In this document: positions 5,271-12,770 of the stretch, in pieces
Numbering within the stretch: position 1 is the first letter of the stretch
Layout of the letters: the number at the start of each line of letters is the position of its first letter
IMG/VR virus record: IMGVR_UViG_3300037891_000227
Span: 1 to 20,982 of that record
From: a virus
DNA: 20,982 nt
Strand: one strand, 5' to 3'
Position numbers and translations under genes: made by a program
Notes under the pieces: model-generated
Seen by the model: only the letters and a program-made list of their open reading frames with translations
Told to the model about the DNA's origin: nothing
Database searches by the model: none

Positions 5271-5300
5271 AAAGAGACTCCGAAAGGGGTCTCTTTTTTT
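5271..5300 (+). terminator. Intrinsic terminator after gp23
   Basis: An 11-bp stem (5271-5281 with 5286-5296, one G-U pair) is capped by a GAAA tetraloop, and a run of seven T ends at 5300. This is a textbook rho-independent terminator for the head operon. The late promoter for the next gene begins two bases later. Confidence 0.92.
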
Positions 5301-5301
5301 G

Positions 5302-5309
5302 TATAAATA
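5302..5309 (+). promoter_or_regulatory. Late promoter abutting the gp19-like gene
   Basis: An exact TATAAATA lies only five bases before the ATG at 5315. With usual late-promoter spacing the transcript would start at about the ATG itself, leaving no room for a ribosome site. The message should therefore be leaderless or nearly so. Confidence 0.75.
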
Positions 5310-6383: not shown

Positions 6384-6391
6384 TATAAATA
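6384..6391 (+). promoter_or_regulatory. Late promoter abutting uvsW
   Basis: An exact TATAAATA begins one base after the uvsY stop codon, with six bases between its end and the uvsW ATG at 6398. The predicted start (about 6397) gives an almost leaderless mRNA. T4 uvsW is also expressed late, so this fits known regulation. Confidence 0.75.
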
Positions 6392-6397
6392 ACTACA

Positions 6398-7870
6398 ATG
6401 AGTGACATCGTTATAACCAAAAATGATGAAGTTGATATTATTGTAAAATCAAATGATTCTGGTATCGTAATGGAACTAAGCGAGTTCTTTACTTTTTATG
6501 TGCCGGGTTATAAATTTGTACCTTCTTATCGTAATAAGTTATGGGACGGAAAAATAAGATTATATGATACTCGCAATAACACGCTTCCTAGTGGTTTGCT
6601 ATACCACGTAGAGAAATTTGCAGGACAAAGAGGATATGAAATACTTAATAAAATACAAGAAGCAAATATTGAAAGCTGTGATATTCCTGAGCTTAGCTTA
6701 TCTAATGCTGGGAATCCTATCAGTCTTCGTGATTATCAATCTATAGCAATTAACCATGCGTTAAAGTTTAAACGCTCTCTTTTAGTTTCACCCACAGGCT
6801 CTGGTAAATCTCTTATGATTTATATGATACTTCGTTGGTATCTTGAAGCATCGAATAAGAATGCACTAATTGTAGTACCAACGACTTCTCTTGTAGAACA
6901 ATTATGGAAAGACTTTGCAGACTATTCATCTAATGACGATACATTTAACCCCAATGAAGTTCATAAGATATATGCAGGAAAAGAAAAAGAATCATTTCCA
7001 CACAGAGTGGTAATCACTACTTGGCAATCAGTCTTTAAGATGCCACGTAATTGGTTTGAAGATTACGAAATGGTTGTAGGAGATGAAGCTCATTTGTTTA
7101 AAGCTAAATCATTAACTACTATAATGGGTCACCTAAGAAATGCATGGTTAAGAATAGGAACTACAGGAACTCTAGACGGAACTAAAGTTCATAAGCTTGT
7201 ACTAGAAGGCGCTTTTGGTCCTACCTTTAATGTGACATCTACAAAGAAACTAATCGAATCAGAAACTCTTTCTGCGTTGTCTATTGATGTGTTACATATG
7301 CAATATCCAGATGCTGAGAAAAAAGCTTTTGGTAAAAAAACATACCAAGAAGAAGTACAATATATAGTAGCTCACGAAAAGAGAAATAACTTTATTAAGA
7401 ATCTTGCTATAGCTCAAAAGGGTAACACATTAGTTCTATTCAATCTTGTAGAGAAACACGGTAAACCATTGTTTAAATTGATTAGAGATTCGGCCAAGAT
7501 TGATAGAAAAGTATTCTATGTGTCAGGTGAAGTCGGAGCTATCGATAGAGAAGAAATCAGAACACTAGTAGAAAAAGAAAAGGATGCTATTATTGTAGCT
7601 TCGCTTGGTACATTCTCTACCGGTATCAATATAAAGAATCTTCACAATATGGTATTCGCTGCTCCTACAAAAAGTCAGGTAAGAGTTCTCCAATCTATTG
7701 GTCGTTCATTAAGAAAGTCAGAGAGCGGACAACCCGCGAAGGTGTATGATATATGCGACGACTTTAGTTGGAAGACTAGAAAGAACTACACTCTTGGCCA
7801 CGGAATAGAACGAATCGGTATCTATGAAAAAGAAGAGTTAGACTTTAAGACTCACCCAGTACCTATGTGA
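6398..7870 (+). CDS. uvsW: UvsW RNA-DNA and DNA helicase
   Basis: UvsW is a superfamily 2 helicase that in T4 unwinds R-loops, regresses forks and moves branches, and so shifts replication from origin-based to recombination-based mode. The product has 490 residues (T4: 503). Motifs in order: a DRD-like N-terminal domain with the KLWDGKIRLYD signature (47-57), Q-motif-like RDYQ (111), Walker A PTGSGKS (132-138), motif Ia VVPTTSLVEQ, DEAH (229-232), motif III TTGTLDG (255-261), and motif VI QSIGRSLRKS (432-441). All catalytic residues are present. It begins without a Shine-Dalgarno right after a late promoter. Its end overlaps the convergent fibre gene by 8 bases. Confidence 0.96.
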   Translation: MSDIVITKNDEVDIIVKSNDSGIVMELSEFFTFYVPGYKFVPSYRNKLWDGKIRLYDTRNNTLPSGLLYHVEKFAGQRGYEILNKIQEANIESCDIPELSLSNAGNPISLRDYQSIAINHALKFKRSLLVSPTGSGKSLMIYMILRWYLEASNKNALIVVPTTSLVEQLWKDFADYSSNDDTFNPNEVHKIYAGKEKESFPHRVVITTWQSVFKMPRNWFEDYEMVVGDEAHLFKAKSLTTIMGHLRNAWLRIGTTGTLDGTKVHKLVLEGAFGPTFNVTSTKKLIESETLSALSIDVLHMQYPDAEKKAFGKKTYQEEVQYIVAHEKRNNFIKNLAIAQKGNTLVLFNLVEKHGKPLFKLIRDSAKIDRKVFYVSGEVGAIDREEIRTLVEKEKDAIIVASLGTFSTGINIKNLHNMVFAAPTKSQVRVLQSIGRSLRKSESGQPAKVYDICDDFSWKTRKNYTLGHGIERIGIYEKEELDFKTHPVPM

Positions 7871-10853
7871 TTGAGCCATTAGCAACAAAGTCACTAGTCA
7901 TGTCCATTATCTTGTACGTAATTCTAAAAAAGTAATTATCATCTACCGTTTGACTATACGTATTCAAATTAGCATAGGTATTTGCGCCTTCTGGTCTAAG
8001 TAATAATGGTACATTAGGATAAGCTCGTGTTTGAGTAGCGGGAGCATCTCTTACAATAATAGTATCGACTGCGCCGCCTGCTACAAACACACCATTAATA
8101 GTATGGTTTAAAAATTTCTTTTGAAAAGTAGCGAAAGTGTTATACTTACCGGATGAACCGTAGCCTGAAACTGTATTTGCTGGAGTTTCAACTACTAATT
8201 GCAAATTATTACCCCAACCTCTAAGCTGCCCGCCGCTCATTGGTGTCCATGAGCCTCTATCGATAAATATTTCGAGCTCTCTTATTACAAGTACTTTATT
8301 CGCACCAGGAGCAGGTATTAATTCAAGGAATGTAGATGCAGTTGTAGTCATTGCTTGGGCGCGAGTACCAGCAACTTTTATTACAATAACCCTTTCGTCT
8401 TGAACCAGATTGCCCGATAAATTAAAAGCAGCAGTTGTTGTTGATGATGATGAAGTTGGAAAATTTGCAGATACATAGTGACTGGAGCCAATAGTTGAAG
8501 CTCCATTAATGGACCCGGTCGCAGCCAGGTTTCCACCCGCAGAAACCCCTCCACTTGCTCTAATCTCGCCTTGAACATCTAATTCATAGCCAGCTTCAGC
8601 GGTCTTACCAATGCCAACTTCACCAGTATCATTGATAGTCATTCTAGCAATAGTAGCACCATCTGCGCCAGTATTATCTGGTCGAGTAGAAAATACTAAA
8701 TTTCCACTTGCGGCTGAAGAAGATGCTCTTATAGAATCTATACTCGCGTTAACATATGTTTCTGATGTACTATTAGTAAATGCTATACCAGTACCAGTAC
8801 CGGAAGTAGTTGAATCATTATGTATTCGAATTTGGCGAACAACGTTACCAGCACTTGTGTCTTTTACGTGTAATTTTCCTTGTACCGCAAAATTATCAAA
8901 AGCTGTAATTCCTGCATCTCCACGTAAACTAAGTGTGCCGCTGCCAGCATTCAAGCTTACATCATCACCTGGTGTGCCGTTTATACCAGATGTTAAAAAC
9001 GCGCCTACTCCTCCGCCGCCGGAGTTACCAGCAATAAAACTTACCGCACCGTTACTTGCTTTTAATTCAAGATAATCTCCATTGGTAGCTGGTTCATTAG
9101 TTAATGTTATTTTAGGATTGGTACCACTTGATGCAATATTACCAGTGAACGATGGATTATTTATTGGTGCTTTATTATCAACTCCTAAATCACTTTTCAA
9201 AGACTGAAAAGTCTTTGGCATAATTCCGGTACTTGCAAACATGGCCAGGTCGCCTCCGCCTGGAGCAGCAGAAGTATTATCCATTTTAACCGCATTCGTA
9301 TTAGCTATACCAAAGGTTAAGGTATCCTGCTTTCCAGCGATGTCAGTTATATTCTGGTCTACGTCTGATCGCAGTGTTGGAATACCCATATCACTTTTCA
9401 AAGACTGAAAAGTCTTTGGCATAATACCAGCACTTGCAAACATGGCAAGGTCACCTCCACCTGGAGCGGCAGACGTGTTATCCATTTTAACTGCGTTTGT
9501 ATTAGCTATACCAAAGGTTAAGGTATCCTGCTTTTGGCCAATCGCCGTGGCGGTTGTAGTAGCAAAATTAGCGTCATCGCCTAAAGCCGCAGCCAATTCA
9601 TTTAAAGTGTTTAATGCTTCTGGAGCAGAATTAACTACACCCGCAACTTGAGTATCTACATAAGTTTTATTTGTTAAATGATCGTTTGAAGTTGGTGCCG
9701 CATTTGATTGCGGATTACCAGTAAATATTGGATTGGCTAATGGTGCTTTATTATTAACTCCTAAATCACTTTTTAAGGATGCAAAAGTCTTTGGCATAAT
9801 ACCAGCACTTGCGAATATGGCAATGTCACCTCCAAACGGAGCGGCAGAAGTATTATCCATTTTAACCGCATTCGTATTAGCTAGGCCAAAAGTTAGTGCA
9901 TTTTGTTTTGCTGCAACTTGGGCATCTACATAAGTTTTATTTGTAAGATGATTACCCGCTGTTGGAGCAGTAGCTACATTCACATCTCCGCTTACGGTTA
10001 AAGATGTTAATGTTCCTACACTTGTAATGTTTGTTTGTGCTGCGGTTGAAAGAGTACCAGCTAATGTGGCTCCTGTTATACTTCCACTTGCTGCAATATT
10101 TCCTGTAACATCTAATGCTTGAGACGGTGAAGTCTTATTAATACCAAAGTTGCCTGTACTAATAAATGTATTTCCATCAGGCTTAAATTTCATAGTACTT
10201 AAAACAGAACCACCTTTTTTCAATTCTAAGTTAAAGTTCTTTTCACCTTCACCCGAGGCTGTGTTACCTTCGTATGTTATTCCAAATTCGTTATCCGCAG
10301 AAGCGGCATGTTTAATTCTTATACCTCCACCATTAAAAAATCCTTGTTGAATTTCTAAACCAGATGAAGCCGATACGCCCGTAAGTTTTAGTTGTCCACT
10401 TGATGTTAATGCAGTTAATGTTCCAACACTCGTAATATTTGGTTGAGCTGCAGTAGTTAAAGTTATTGCATCTATTCCAGCTTCGGCTAAAGTTTGATTT
10501 ATAAAATTGCCTGAACTCGAAACTAACAATTCACCGTCTGCTAATGAAGTGAGTGTAACATCATTCATTTCGGCGATGGTGTCTTCACTTTGAACCGCGC
10601 TAGTAACAAACTCTGTAGTAGCTATTTGAGTAGTATTTGTTCCAGCTGTTGCTGTCGGTGCAATAGGAGTTCCTGTGAAAGTAGGATCGGTAAACATCGT
10701 AGCCTTTGACTCGTTTGTCACATTGTTTATTCCTAATGAGTTGCGGGTCGCCGCGTCTTTTGTAACTCCTACAGGAACTAAACCTACTGATGGATTTATT
10801 GCAGCAGTCAAAGAACTATTTGATGAACTGATCGTTGCTTTTAAATCTGCCAT
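7863..10853 (-). CDS. Repetitive tail fibre protein (996 aa)
   Basis: A large, Ala/Thr/Ser/Asn-rich protein with phage-fibre repeats, likely a trimeric adhesin on the tail. The N-terminal two thirds hold recurring beta-rich units: FTGTPIAPTATAG, then two NITSVGTLT units, LTNKTYVDAQVA/LTNKTYVDTQVA, and three copies of a 48-residue TNAVKMDNTSAAP...IMPKTF..LKSD block at about residues 315-362, 440-487 and 507-554. Residues 760-996 are non-repetitive and probably form the distal tip. There is no visible S74 peptidase or other self-cleaving chaperone. The ATG follows AGGATAA, which overlaps the stop of the upstream minus-strand gene, so the two form one operon. Which receptor it binds, and whether it is the main long fibre, cannot be told. 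Confidence 0.85.
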   Translation of the reverse strand: MADLKATISSSNSSLTAAINPSVGLVPVGVTKDAATRNSLGINNVTNESKATMFTDPTFTGTPIAPTATAGTNTTQIATTEFVTSAVQSEDTIAEMNDVTLTSLADGELLVSSSGNFINQTLAEAGIDAITLTTAAQPNITSVGTLTALTSSGQLKLTGVSASSGLEIQQGFFNGGGIRIKHAASADNEFGITYEGNTASGEGEKNFNLELKKGGSVLSTMKFKPDGNTFISTGNFGINKTSPSQALDVTGNIAASGSITGATLAGTLSTAAQTNITSVGTLTSLTVSGDVNVATAPTAGNHLTNKTYVDAQVAAKQNALTFGLANTNAVKMDNTSAAPFGGDIAIFASAGIMPKTFASLKSDLGVNNKAPLANPIFTGNPQSNAAPTSNDHLTNKTYVDTQVAGVVNSAPEALNTLNELAAALGDDANFATTTATAIGQKQDTLTFGIANTNAVKMDNTSAAPGGGDLAMFASAGIMPKTFQSLKSDMGIPTLRSDVDQNITDIAGKQDTLTFGIANTNAVKMDNTSAAPGGGDLAMFASTGIMPKTFQSLKSDLGVDNKAPINNPSFTGNIASSGTNPKITLTNEPATNGDYLELKASNGAVSFIAGNSGGGGVGAFLTSGINGTPGDDVSLNAGSGTLSLRGDAGITAFDNFAVQGKLHVKDTSAGNVVRQIRIHNDSTTSGTGTGIAFTNSTSETYVNASIDSIRASSSAASGNLVFSTRPDNTGADGATIARMTINDTGEVGIGKTAEAGYELDVQGEIRASGGVSAGGNLAATGSINGASTIGSSHYVSANFPTSSSSTTTAAFNLSGNLVQDERVIVIKVAGTRAQAMTTTASTFLELIPAPGANKVLVIRELEIFIDRGSWTPMSGGQLRGWGNNLQLVVETPANTVSGYGSSGKYNTFATFQKKFLNHTINGVFVAGGAVDTIIVRDAPATQTRAYPNVPLLLRPEGANTYANLNTYSQTVDDNYFFRITYKIMDMTSDFVANGSIT
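9190..9333 (-). repeat. Fibre-gene direct repeat, copy 3 in gene order
   Basis: A 144-base unit of the fibre gene, nearly identical to 9391-9534 (offset 201 bases) and more distantly matching 9766-9909. It encodes the block with TNAVKMDNTSAAP and IMPKTFQSLKSD. The near identity of two copies at the DNA level suggests recent duplication or gene conversion. Confidence 0.85.
9391..9534 (-). repeat. Fibre-gene direct repeat, copy 2 in gene order
   Basis: Closest partner of the copy at 9190-9333, with only scattered, mostly silent differences. Both contain a perfect inverted repeat (CAAAGACT, four bases, AGTCTTTG) at 9399-9418, lost in the third copy. Confidence 0.85.
9766..9909 (-). repeat. Fibre-gene direct repeat, copy 1 in gene order (diverged)
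   Basis: Encodes the same 48-residue fibre block with more changes (AAPFGGDIAIF instead of AAPGGGDLAMF, TFASLKSD instead of TFQSLKSD), so it is the older or less homogenised copy. Confidence 0.75.
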
Positions 10854-10861
10854 AATTTATC

Positions 10862-11524
10862 CTAGTATCCGTAACCACTTGCTCCACCACCATCCGAAGT
10901 CTGAGTCTCTGATGGTGAGTTATTTGATGTATCATCTGATGCTGAAGATGTAGAGCCCGAAACTTGTTCAAGAGCGCTTTGGCTAGTCTCAGCGGTTTCC
11001 GAACTGTAATTAGTATTATCTGAGCCAATAGGATACACATGAACGTATCCTAAATTCATATATTGCGAGTGAATAGCATAAGAACCAACATAATTAGAAT
11101 TTCCTGTAATTGGGTCGTACATATAATGGGGTACGAAATTTTCTTCAGTATATCTGAATTCTATGCCTTCTGCTAAAGGATTGGCTTGAGATGCTGAAGG
11201 CAATACTTCTATTTGACCTTCCAAAACTCTAATCACCTCTGATGTTGATGAGTTATAAATTTCTATATCATACACATAGCGGCCAGATTTTAGAGCCTTT
11301 GTCTGTGCTGAAGTTAAAGATATCGTTATAGTATCTTGTATGGGTGAATTCTCATTGATAGTACATGTAAATGCAGTATACGTTTGAGAACGATACGATT
11401 TTCTTATTTTACCACGAGCTTGGTAGTCATTCAACTGAAAAAGACCAGATACTTGATTGTCTATGTTGATAGTTGAAGAAAAGGTTGCTCCTTGGTCTAT
11501 GTTTAAATTTGAGACTGTTGCCAT
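10862..11524 (-). CDS. Putative virion protein with Ig-like N-terminal domain
   Basis: The 220-residue product begins with a domain of about 105 residues (QGATFSSTINID, NDYQARGKIRKSY, LTSAQTKALKSGRYVYDIEI) that resembles the Ig-like beta domain of phage baseplate upper proteins (BppU-like) and many marine T4-like structural proteins. A linker rich in Tyr and Asn follows, and the last 35 residues are Ser/Thr/Asp/Gly-rich (SDGGGASGYGY at the end). It is the first gene of the minus-strand fibre operon and has a late promoter at 11570-11563 with an AAAGG site in the leader. It may be a fibre connector, adaptor or decoration protein; the domain call is from memory of the pattern. Confidence 0.6.
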   Translation of the reverse strand: MATVSNLNIDQGATFSSTINIDNQVSGLFQLNDYQARGKIRKSYRSQTYTAFTCTINENSPIQDTITISLTSAQTKALKSGRYVYDIEIYNSSTSEVIRVLEGQIEVLPSASQANPLAEGIEFRYTEENFVPHYMYDPITGNSNYVGSYAIHSQYMNLGYVHVYPIGSDNTNYSSETAETSQSALEQVSGSTSSASDDTSNNSPSETQTSDGGGASGYGY

Positions 11525-11527
11525 TTG

Positions 11528-11535
11528 TATAAATA
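11528..11535 (+). promoter_or_regulatory. Late promoter for the 160-aa gene
   Basis: Exact TATAAATA on the + strand, with a start expected near 11541 and a leader of about 57 bases to the ATG at 11598. It lies inside the leader of the opposite-strand gene. Confidence 0.6.
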
Positions 11536-11562
11536 CCTTTGTAGAGTTATTATTATATACTC

Positions 11563-11570
11563 TATTTATA
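11563..11570 (-). promoter_or_regulatory. Late promoter for the minus-strand fibre operon
   Basis: TATAAATA on the - strand, reading from 11570 to 11563, with a start expected near 11557 and a leader of about 33 bases to the ATG at 11524. It faces the + strand late promoter at 11528, so the two transcripts would overlap at their 5' ends by about 17 bases. Confidence 0.65.
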
Positions 11571-11597
11571 AGAAAACAACAGTAGAAAGGCAGGACT

Positions 11598-12080
11598 ATG
11601 AGCGAAGAATTTGAAGAATTACCAATACATGTTATTAAATTAGCAGACGGAACTACAATAATCGCTACCTTTATCGAAGACGATGGTCAAGAAACATTGA
11701 TATCTAACCCAATGGAAATGGATGTAACACCAATGGACGGTAAAGTAGAGATGTTTATGCAGGAGTGGTTATATGGGTGTTATTCAGAAGAAGTCATTAT
11801 ACCCAATGATAAAATAATAACTCACGCTCCTGCGAATAAACGACTACGAAAGTTTTACTCTAAATGTATAATTCAAGAACGATTATCTGACTTAGTCTCA
11901 GAGCTCTTTAACAAAGAACTTGATAATAAATCTGAATATATTGATTCATTAATAGATGGTCTTGAACCTAAAGATTATACTGAAGATGAAGATATCCTTT
12001 CTCCTTGGCGGAATAGAATGGAATGGAGTCCGAAGAGTGATACACCGATAGAAGACGATGAAGATGAGTCCCCTTTCTGA
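11598..12080 (+). CDS. Acidic protein of unknown function, possibly Sm-like N-terminus
   Basis: A 160-residue acidic protein. Residues 8-40 (HVIKLADGTTIIATFIEDD, then TLISNPMEM) have the strand-turn-strand look of an Sm-like fold: a ligand-type loop after the first strand and an asparagine before a hydrophobic strand. The middle has aromatic EMFMQEWLYGCYSEE, and the tail is Asp/Glu-rich (PIEDDEDESPF). It has an AAAGGCAGG ribosome site and a late promoter. The Sm-like reading is weak inference from pattern; I do not recognise a named family. It is crossed by a leftward antisense promoter just past its end. Confidence 0.7.
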   Translation: MSEEFEELPIHVIKLADGTTIIATFIEDDGQETLISNPMEMDVTPMDGKVEMFMQEWLYGCYSEEVIIPNDKIITHAPANKRLRKFYSKCIIQERLSDLVSELFNKELDNKSEYIDSLIDGLEPKDYTEDEDILSPWRNRMEWSPKSDTPIEDDEDESPF

Positions 12081-12092
12081 TTCGATTTAATC

Positions 12093-12121
12093 ATTATACC
12101 AAATCACGCAGTAAGTGTCAA
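12093..12121 (-). promoter_or_regulatory. Perfect consensus sigma70 promoter pointing left
   Basis: On the - strand, TTGACA (12121-12116) is followed after exactly 17 bases by TATAAT (12098-12093), with a TGG extension before the -10. Transcription should begin near 12086 and run antisense through the 160-aa gene toward the fibre operon. No gene on the - strand lies near its start. Confidence 0.8.
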
Positions 12122-12165
12122 GATAAACTGTGTATTTTTTTTAAGAAAGTTAACTAAAAAAAGGT

Positions 12166-12194
12166 TTTACATTTGCCTTAAAATAGTGTATATT
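12166..12194 (+). promoter_or_regulatory. sigma70-type promoter for gp55
   Basis: TTTACA (12166-12171), 17 bases, TATATT (12189-12194). The predicted start, 12201, is the A of the gp55 ATG, so the transcript should be leaderless. It is divergent from the minus-strand consensus promoter at 12093-12121. Confidence 0.7.
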
Positions 12195-12200
12195 ATATAT

Positions 12201-12770
12201 ATGAAAAATGAAAAATTGAAACCCAAACAGAAACCTCACTATGTAAATAATAGAGATTTTTCTGAAGCGGTAGTAGAGCATGTAAGAGCAACTAATACAG
12301 CAATTGAAAACGGAGATGATGAACCACGGATACCTGAATACATAGGATCATGTTTTCTAAAGATTTCAGAAGGCTTATCCCACAAACCAAACTTTGTTCG
12401 ATACACATATCGTGATGAGATGGTAATGGACGCAGTCGAAAATTGTATTAAAGCAATTAATAACTACAACATAGAAGCAGCAACTAGAACAGGTAAACCC
12501 AATGCATTCGCGTACTTTACGCAAATATCCTACTTCGCATTCTTGCGTCGTATAGCTAAGGAGAAGAAACAACAGGATATTAAGATGAAATGGATTGAAG
12601 AATCTGGCATGGAAGCCTTCGCAGATGTAGGAAGTGGTGGATTTGAGGGAGACAGCATAGTCGAAAGAATAAAAAATCGTATTCATACTGTTAAAGTTAA
12701 AGACCAATCACTAAAAGAATGGGCCAACCAACACGGGCTCAGCACACGCAAAAAGCGTAAGATTAAGTAA
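12201..12770 (+). CDS. 55: Late sigma factor gp55
   Basis: gp55 is the minimal sigma factor that directs host RNA polymerase to TATAAATA late promoters. The product has 189 residues (T4: 185). Shared segments are HYVNNRDFSEAVVEHV, ISEGLSHKPNFVRYTYRDEM and the region-2-like AFAYFTQISYFAFLRRIAKE (cited as NAFAYFTQISYFAFLRRI). An upstream in-frame GTG at 12186 would add five residues but lies within the promoter, so the ATG at 12201 is chosen. No Shine-Dalgarno is visible. The C-terminus is basic (STRKKRKIK) and lacks the hydrophobic DFL-type clamp-binding tail of T4 gp55. The stop shares a base with the gp47 start (TAATG). Confidence 0.93.
   Translation: MKNEKLKPKQKPHYVNNRDFSEAVVEHVRATNTAIENGDDEPRIPEYIGSCFLKISEGLSHKPNFVRYTYRDEMVMDAVENCIKAINNYNIEAATRTGKPNAFAYFTQISYFAFLRRIAKEKKQQDIKMKWIEESGMEAFADVGSGGFEGDSIVERIKNRIHTVKVKDQSLKEWANQHGLSTRKKRKIK

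Follow-up and report, generated by a model that had tools for sequence, protein, structure and literature searches.

What does a perfect consensus sigma70 promoter do when there is no gene in front of it? The question is raised by a 20,982-base uncultivated virus record, analysed here over its whole length and referred to below as the window. Its gene order is T4-like: uvsY and uvsW are followed by fibre and fibre-assembly genes on the minus strand, a gene for a 160-aa protein, gp55, gp47 and gp46, and its source is a marine T4-like phage. Between the 160-aa gene and gp55 lies a promoter that faces leftward, away from gp55. The features discussed are listed in Table 1.

Table 1. Features surrounding the leftward promoter (positions in the window)
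Feature	Position	Strand	Basis or remark
uvsW helicase gene	6398-7870	+	late octamer TATAAATA at 6384
996-aa tail fibre protein	7863-10853	-	part of the fibre operon
220-aa fibre assembly-like protein (phrog_3304, L-shaped tail fibre protein assembly)	10862-11524	-	phrog match
Predicted antisense RNA (minimum extent), covering the complement of the entire Sm-like gene	11525-12086	-	inferred; could extend as far as the fibre genes
Late promoter TATAAATA of the Sm-like gene	11528-11535	+	in all relatives compared
Late promoter TATAAATA of the fibre-assembly/fibre operon	11563-11570	-	in all relatives compared
160-aa Sm-like (LSm) protein, T4-GC 139 family	11598-12080	+	phrog_471, E=1.4e-8; profile; model
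Leftward (antisense) sigma70 promoter, TTGACA-17-TGG-TATAAT	12093-12121	-	hexamer scan and conservation
A/T-rich, UP-element-like spacer between the two -35 boxes	12122-12165		survey of relatives
gp55 sigma70-type promoter, TTTACA-17-TATATT	12166-12194	+	hexamer scan and alignment
gp55, late-transcription sigma factor	12201-12770	+	phrog_234, E=1.1e-51

The leftward promoter and the gene that it faces

The leftward promoter consists of a TTGACA -35 box (12121-12116, minus strand), a 17-bp spacer and an extended -10 element, TGG-TATAAT, in which TATAAT occupies 12098-12093 of the same strand. Transcription is predicted to start at approximately 12086, with 12086-12121 spanning both promoter and start site. 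The original prediction of a perfect consensus promoter with a TGG extension is confirmed: this is the sole 12/12 match in the 20 kb scanned (0.012 exact matches are expected in the window), and its hexamers lie within the 16–18 bp spacing of sigma70 promoters and above chance. Weaker matches from the same scan are at chance level (47 found vs 59.8 in shuffles). A chance origin of the site is ruled out by the expectation of 0.012 and by its enrichment at the 3' ends of Sm-like genes (discussed below).

The direction proposed for the promoter follows from minus-strand geometry: it points in cis-antisense orientation into the 160-aa gene and, beyond it, towards the minus-strand fibre-assembly and fibre genes. 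Its description as an orphan is also supported, as no minus-strand open reading frame of at least 40 aa was found behind it within the 160-aa gene. Two signs of a hidden leftward gene were rejected: the longest minus-strand frame in the antisense stretch (39 aa) begins at 12094, which precedes the point where the RNA is predicted to start, and an apparent leftward start codon at the stop of the 160-aa gene (CAY-TAG read backwards) is accounted for by a conserved C-terminal histidine.

In relatives, the family to which the 160-aa protein belongs carries the annotation "methylamine utilization". A Pfam search with the window's own protein gave no match; when 46 homologs are combined into a profile, the match is to the Sm/LSm-like protein PDB 3by7 (E=1.3e-13), and the Syn19 homolog matches Pfam Sm_like (5.7e-47). 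In a structural model of the window's protein (pLDDT 82), the best Foldseek match is again 3by7 (TM 0.89 on the target), and the gene product is predicted to have an Sm-like fold. Because the protein matches 3by7 by profile and by model, and its Syn19 homolog matches Sm_like, the antisense promoter faces a gene for an Sm-fold protein.

Conservation among relatives

The leftward promoter is not peculiar to the window's phage. Among 94 non-redundant relatives, many represented by short metagenomic contigs, 81 have a leftward promoter (score of at least 11) within 150 nt past the stop codon of the Sm-like gene, compared with 17 of 675 other gene ends drawn from the same loci; both hexamers of the original prediction are thus kept in relatives. 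In an alignment of 14 sequences, the plus-strand sequence ATTATACCA, corresponding to the -10 box with its TGG, is invariant in the window's clade, and the -35 box (TTGACA, TTTACA, TTGACG or TGTACA) is always 17 bp from the -10 box across a spacer whose sequence drifts. A wider survey took in both IMG/VR contigs and isolates and covered 102 non-redundant regions upstream of gp55: promoters matching at least 10/12 positions are present leftward in 74.5% (6.9% of shuffles) and rightward in 77.5% (7.5% of shuffles). Of the 59 full-consensus promoters that have no co-directional gene start and lie outside co-directional open reading frames, 58 are the leftward promoter.

A direct nucleotide search for relatives among isolates returned part of one gp55 only. 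The promoter is present in most of the cultivated cyanophages checked: Syn19, S-MbCM6, S-RIM2, S-RIM8, S-P4, S-PM2, S-RSM4, S-SM2, S-ShM2, P-SSM3, ACG-2014f/g, DSL-LC03 and C48C1. Melnitz-3 has no clear leftward promoter, and that of RN05-S was scored in the survey of 102 regions and was not recovered in a later, narrower scan. At the level of sequence, these comparisons confirm a family-wide antisense promoter, a stronger observation than the one first noted, and identify the site as a genuine host-sigma70 (early) promoter, presumably active, that is under selection across the Kyanoviridae and their uncultivated relatives. Literature searches found no description of it; earlier start-site mapping in Syn9 may have recorded it.

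The general gene order in relatives is uvsW, Sm-like gene, promoter pair, gp55 and gp47, with a small gene sometimes between the last two. Across all 94 loci, the Sm-like gene and gp55 have the same orientation. Other genes are inserted between the Sm-like gene and gp55 in 24 loci. In 17 of these the 3' end of the Sm-like gene retains the leftward promoter, often with the gp55 promoter hundreds of bases away and the consensus (TTGACA-17-TATAAT) still perfect; in the other seven it is not at that end, and the link to the Sm-like gene is therefore not absolute. Two loci (L012 and L013) have a leftward 299-aa gene directly behind the promoter, which begins VIKSDNEWSPLKEV in L012 and has a likely ribosome site (GAGGGGG or AAAGGGG). 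The gene may be amidinotransferase-like.

Phasing of the twin promoters

The leftward and gp55 promoters stand back to back, their -35 ends facing each other, and the length of the A/T-rich spacer between them varies among relatives in steps of approximately 10 bp. The distance between the two -35 starts falls near -15, -6, 5, 14, 25, 35 or 45 bp; the centres of the hexamers are therefore approximately -10, 0, 10, 20, 30, 40 or 50 bp apart, i.e. at whole turns, on one face of the helix. A period scan of these distances gives R=0.75 at 10.0 bp (71 pairs). With phylogeny corrected for by gp55 clustering only, one value per cluster gives R=0.82 (30 clusters at 80% identity) and R=0.73 (11 clusters at 75%, p=0.0016). 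A control distance, from the leftward start to the Sm-like stop, is not periodic (R approximately 0.17). Five isolates fetched afterwards have -35 distances of 6, -15, -6, 4 and -6, each within 1 bp of the whole-turn rule. As comparative evidence that divergent promoters may be physically coupled, this spacing is unusually clean. A further feature, resembling an UP element, is a set of conserved A/T positions approximately 10 bp apart on the upstream side of the leftward -35 box.

The phasing points to a coupling of the two promoters, something that silencing of the Sm-like gene alone would not need. The leftward promoter might serve gp55, with the antisense RNA as a by-product: tuning of the gp55 promoter would come from leftward firing or from a polymerase that sits on the same face of the helix, by way of supercoiling, occlusion or an UP element common to both. 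The periodicity (in pairs and in clusters), the five further isolates and the non-periodic control all favour this reading. It is harder to reconcile with the 17 rearranged loci that keep the consensus at the Sm-like end with the gp55 promoter usually hundreds of bases off, and we regard it as a live rival, albeit a rather unlikely one.

The -35 boxes within a pair are identical in 39 of 64 cases, vs 13.6 expected. Three classes of phage can be distinguished by the early -35 box at their gp55 loci (TTGACA, TTTACA or the palindrome TGTACA), and the class is consistent across the other promoters of each. A local regulator that reads the co-varying boxes was considered and ruled out: since other promoters of the same phages use the same type, it is a property of the phage or host and not of the site. 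The three classes may reflect a host sigma factor or a phage factor.

In the interval 12166-12206, the gp55 ATG coincides with the start predicted for the gp55 promoter and is not preceded by a Shine-Dalgarno sequence; judging from this arrangement, the gp55 mRNA of the window's clade may be leaderless.

Late promoters and the early/late border

In the window's clade, the late promoters of the Sm-like gene (11528, plus strand) and of the fibre operon (11570, minus strand) are convergent and overlap head-on between the fibre-assembly and Sm-like genes in all relatives compared. For most relatives, uvsW and the Sm-like gene are immediate neighbours, with uvsW on the upstream side; in the window's clade they are separated by the fibre genes. 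A perfect late octamer is found in only some relatives, upstream of uvsY in 13 of 44 cases and upstream of uvsW in 6 of 51.

In the complete genome of C48C1, gp55 (21,386) is where forward sigma70 promoters first occur, and the first 50 kb contain five late octamers, of which four are to the left of the gp55 promoter (5.8–17.8 kb); the promoter pair thus marks the border between late and early blocks in that genome. In cyanomyoviruses, which have no homologs of MotA or AsiA, the sigma70-like promoters are regarded as the early class (PMC2984593); a late promoter drives T4 uvsW (PMC3016281). The leftward RNA should therefore be early and its targets late. A conserved antisense promoter at the early/late border, present in the laboratory phage S-PM2, makes the timing of genes in phages that lack both of these regulators directly testable.

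From the observed sequence, position, conservation and phasing of the leftward promoter, and from the late promoters around it, we infer its activity, its timing and its silencing effect. Our best guess at its role is that it silences the Sm-like gene before late time. The explanation that we prefer, and to which we give an even chance, is that of an early antisense promoter at the late/early boundary that opposes the late Sm-like gene (and, in relatives, also uvsW) until gp55 switches transcription. Early in infection, host RNA polymerase would use both promoters: the rightward one would yield the gp55/gp47/gp46 mRNA, and the leftward one an antisense RNA opposing the Sm-like gene (uvsW too in relatives) through collision, RNA pairing or both. 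As gp55 builds up, polymerase would shift to the TATAAATA promoters; leftward firing would then fade, and the Sm-like gene would be freed for late expression. Weighing against this reading are the seven rearranged loci, the results for Melnitz-3 and RN05-S, the small share of relatives with perfect late octamers at uvsY or uvsW, and the failure to find an antisense terminator or a conserved RNA structure. A broader proposal, which we make tentatively, is that the late/early border of marine T4-like phages holds a timing switch shared across the family, in which helically phased twin sigma70 promoters would produce both the late sigma factor and an antisense lock on Sm-like/uvsW that holds until this factor diverts the polymerase.

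The predicted leftward RNA and comparison with known systems

The leftward promoter is a possible source of an unannotated non-coding RNA. A search for intrinsic terminators over the first 2.2 kb of the leftward RNA came up empty in 71 of 76 loci, an Rfam search of this RNA gave no match, and neither a conserved RNA structure, a conserved end nor strongly conserved sequence past the leader was found. In most relatives outside the window's clade, a leader between the leftward start and the Sm-like stop is rich in purines at +9 to +18 (roughly GAGGGGAG); TATAC often comes next. The window's clade has no separate leader of this kind, and its leftward start is approximately 6 nt from the Sm-like stop.

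It is improbable that the RNA has a function of its own, as a trans-acting or Sm-like-bound small RNA: its overlap with a gene for an Sm/LSm-fold protein and the conserved purine-rich 5' leader of many relatives are in keeping with this idea, but the absence of a terminator, of an Rfam family and of strong conservation beyond the leader argues against it. Cyanophage S-PM2 has an antisense RNA, CfrI (PMC2984593), which resembles the RNA predicted here from its promoter in being cis-antisense in a T4-like cyanophage. CfrI differs in its location, at psbA and a homing endonuclease gene, whereas the leftward promoter is at the Sm-like/gp55 border and is conserved family-wide; S-PM2 itself carries it.

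A second live rival, also of low probability, is a replication origin, in which an R-loop formed by the leftward transcript would prime DNA synthesis and later be removed by UvsW. The T4 origins oriF and oriG are such promoter-driven R-loops, shut off at late times, and UvsW is the late R-loop helicase (PMC3016281); the strong orphan promoter near uvsW and the G-rich leader outside the window's clade (approximately +9 to +18) would fit this model. Unlike oriF and oriG (PMC3016281), the site is at most a putative origin, and neither a MotA site nor a defined unwinding element was identified at it. The GC/AT skew of C48C1 at third codon positions has no clear switch at the site, and the purine-rich leader is missing from the window's clade, where the start is so near to the Sm-like stop.

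Early transcription of the fibre operon, as suggested in the original prediction, is unlikely, and we attach very little probability to it. In the window's clade, fibre genes do lie downstream in the leftward direction with no terminator found between, and L012 and L013 illustrate that a leftward gene can adjoin the promoter. The idea is weakened, however, because the fibre operon has its own conserved TATAAATA late promoter and the leftward promoter is retained in most relatives despite the absence of fibre genes there. The excludon (PMC7154746) offers a comparison: in the window's clade, one leftward RNA could be both Sm-like antisense and fibre mRNA, with no terminator found between. The geometry fits in that clade only, most relatives being without a leftward gene, the fibre operon has a late promoter of its own, and the dual function is putative here.

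The promoter pair also has a parallel in the bidirectional bacterial promoters with a symmetrical shared -10 element (PMC10268837), in which divergent starts likewise give one coding and one antisense transcript. That type is defined by starts 7–25 bp apart with -10 elements that overlap reciprocally (PMC10268837), and the pair falls outside it: here there are two separate promoters with starts approximately 115 bp apart in the window and at least approximately 57 bp apart in relatives (start to start approximately D+72, where D is the -35 distance, i.e. approximately 57–119 bp).

Further to the left in the window, a strong intrinsic terminator-like hairpin (11 pairs) is present on the plus strand at 5271-5296, just before a late octamer at 5302.
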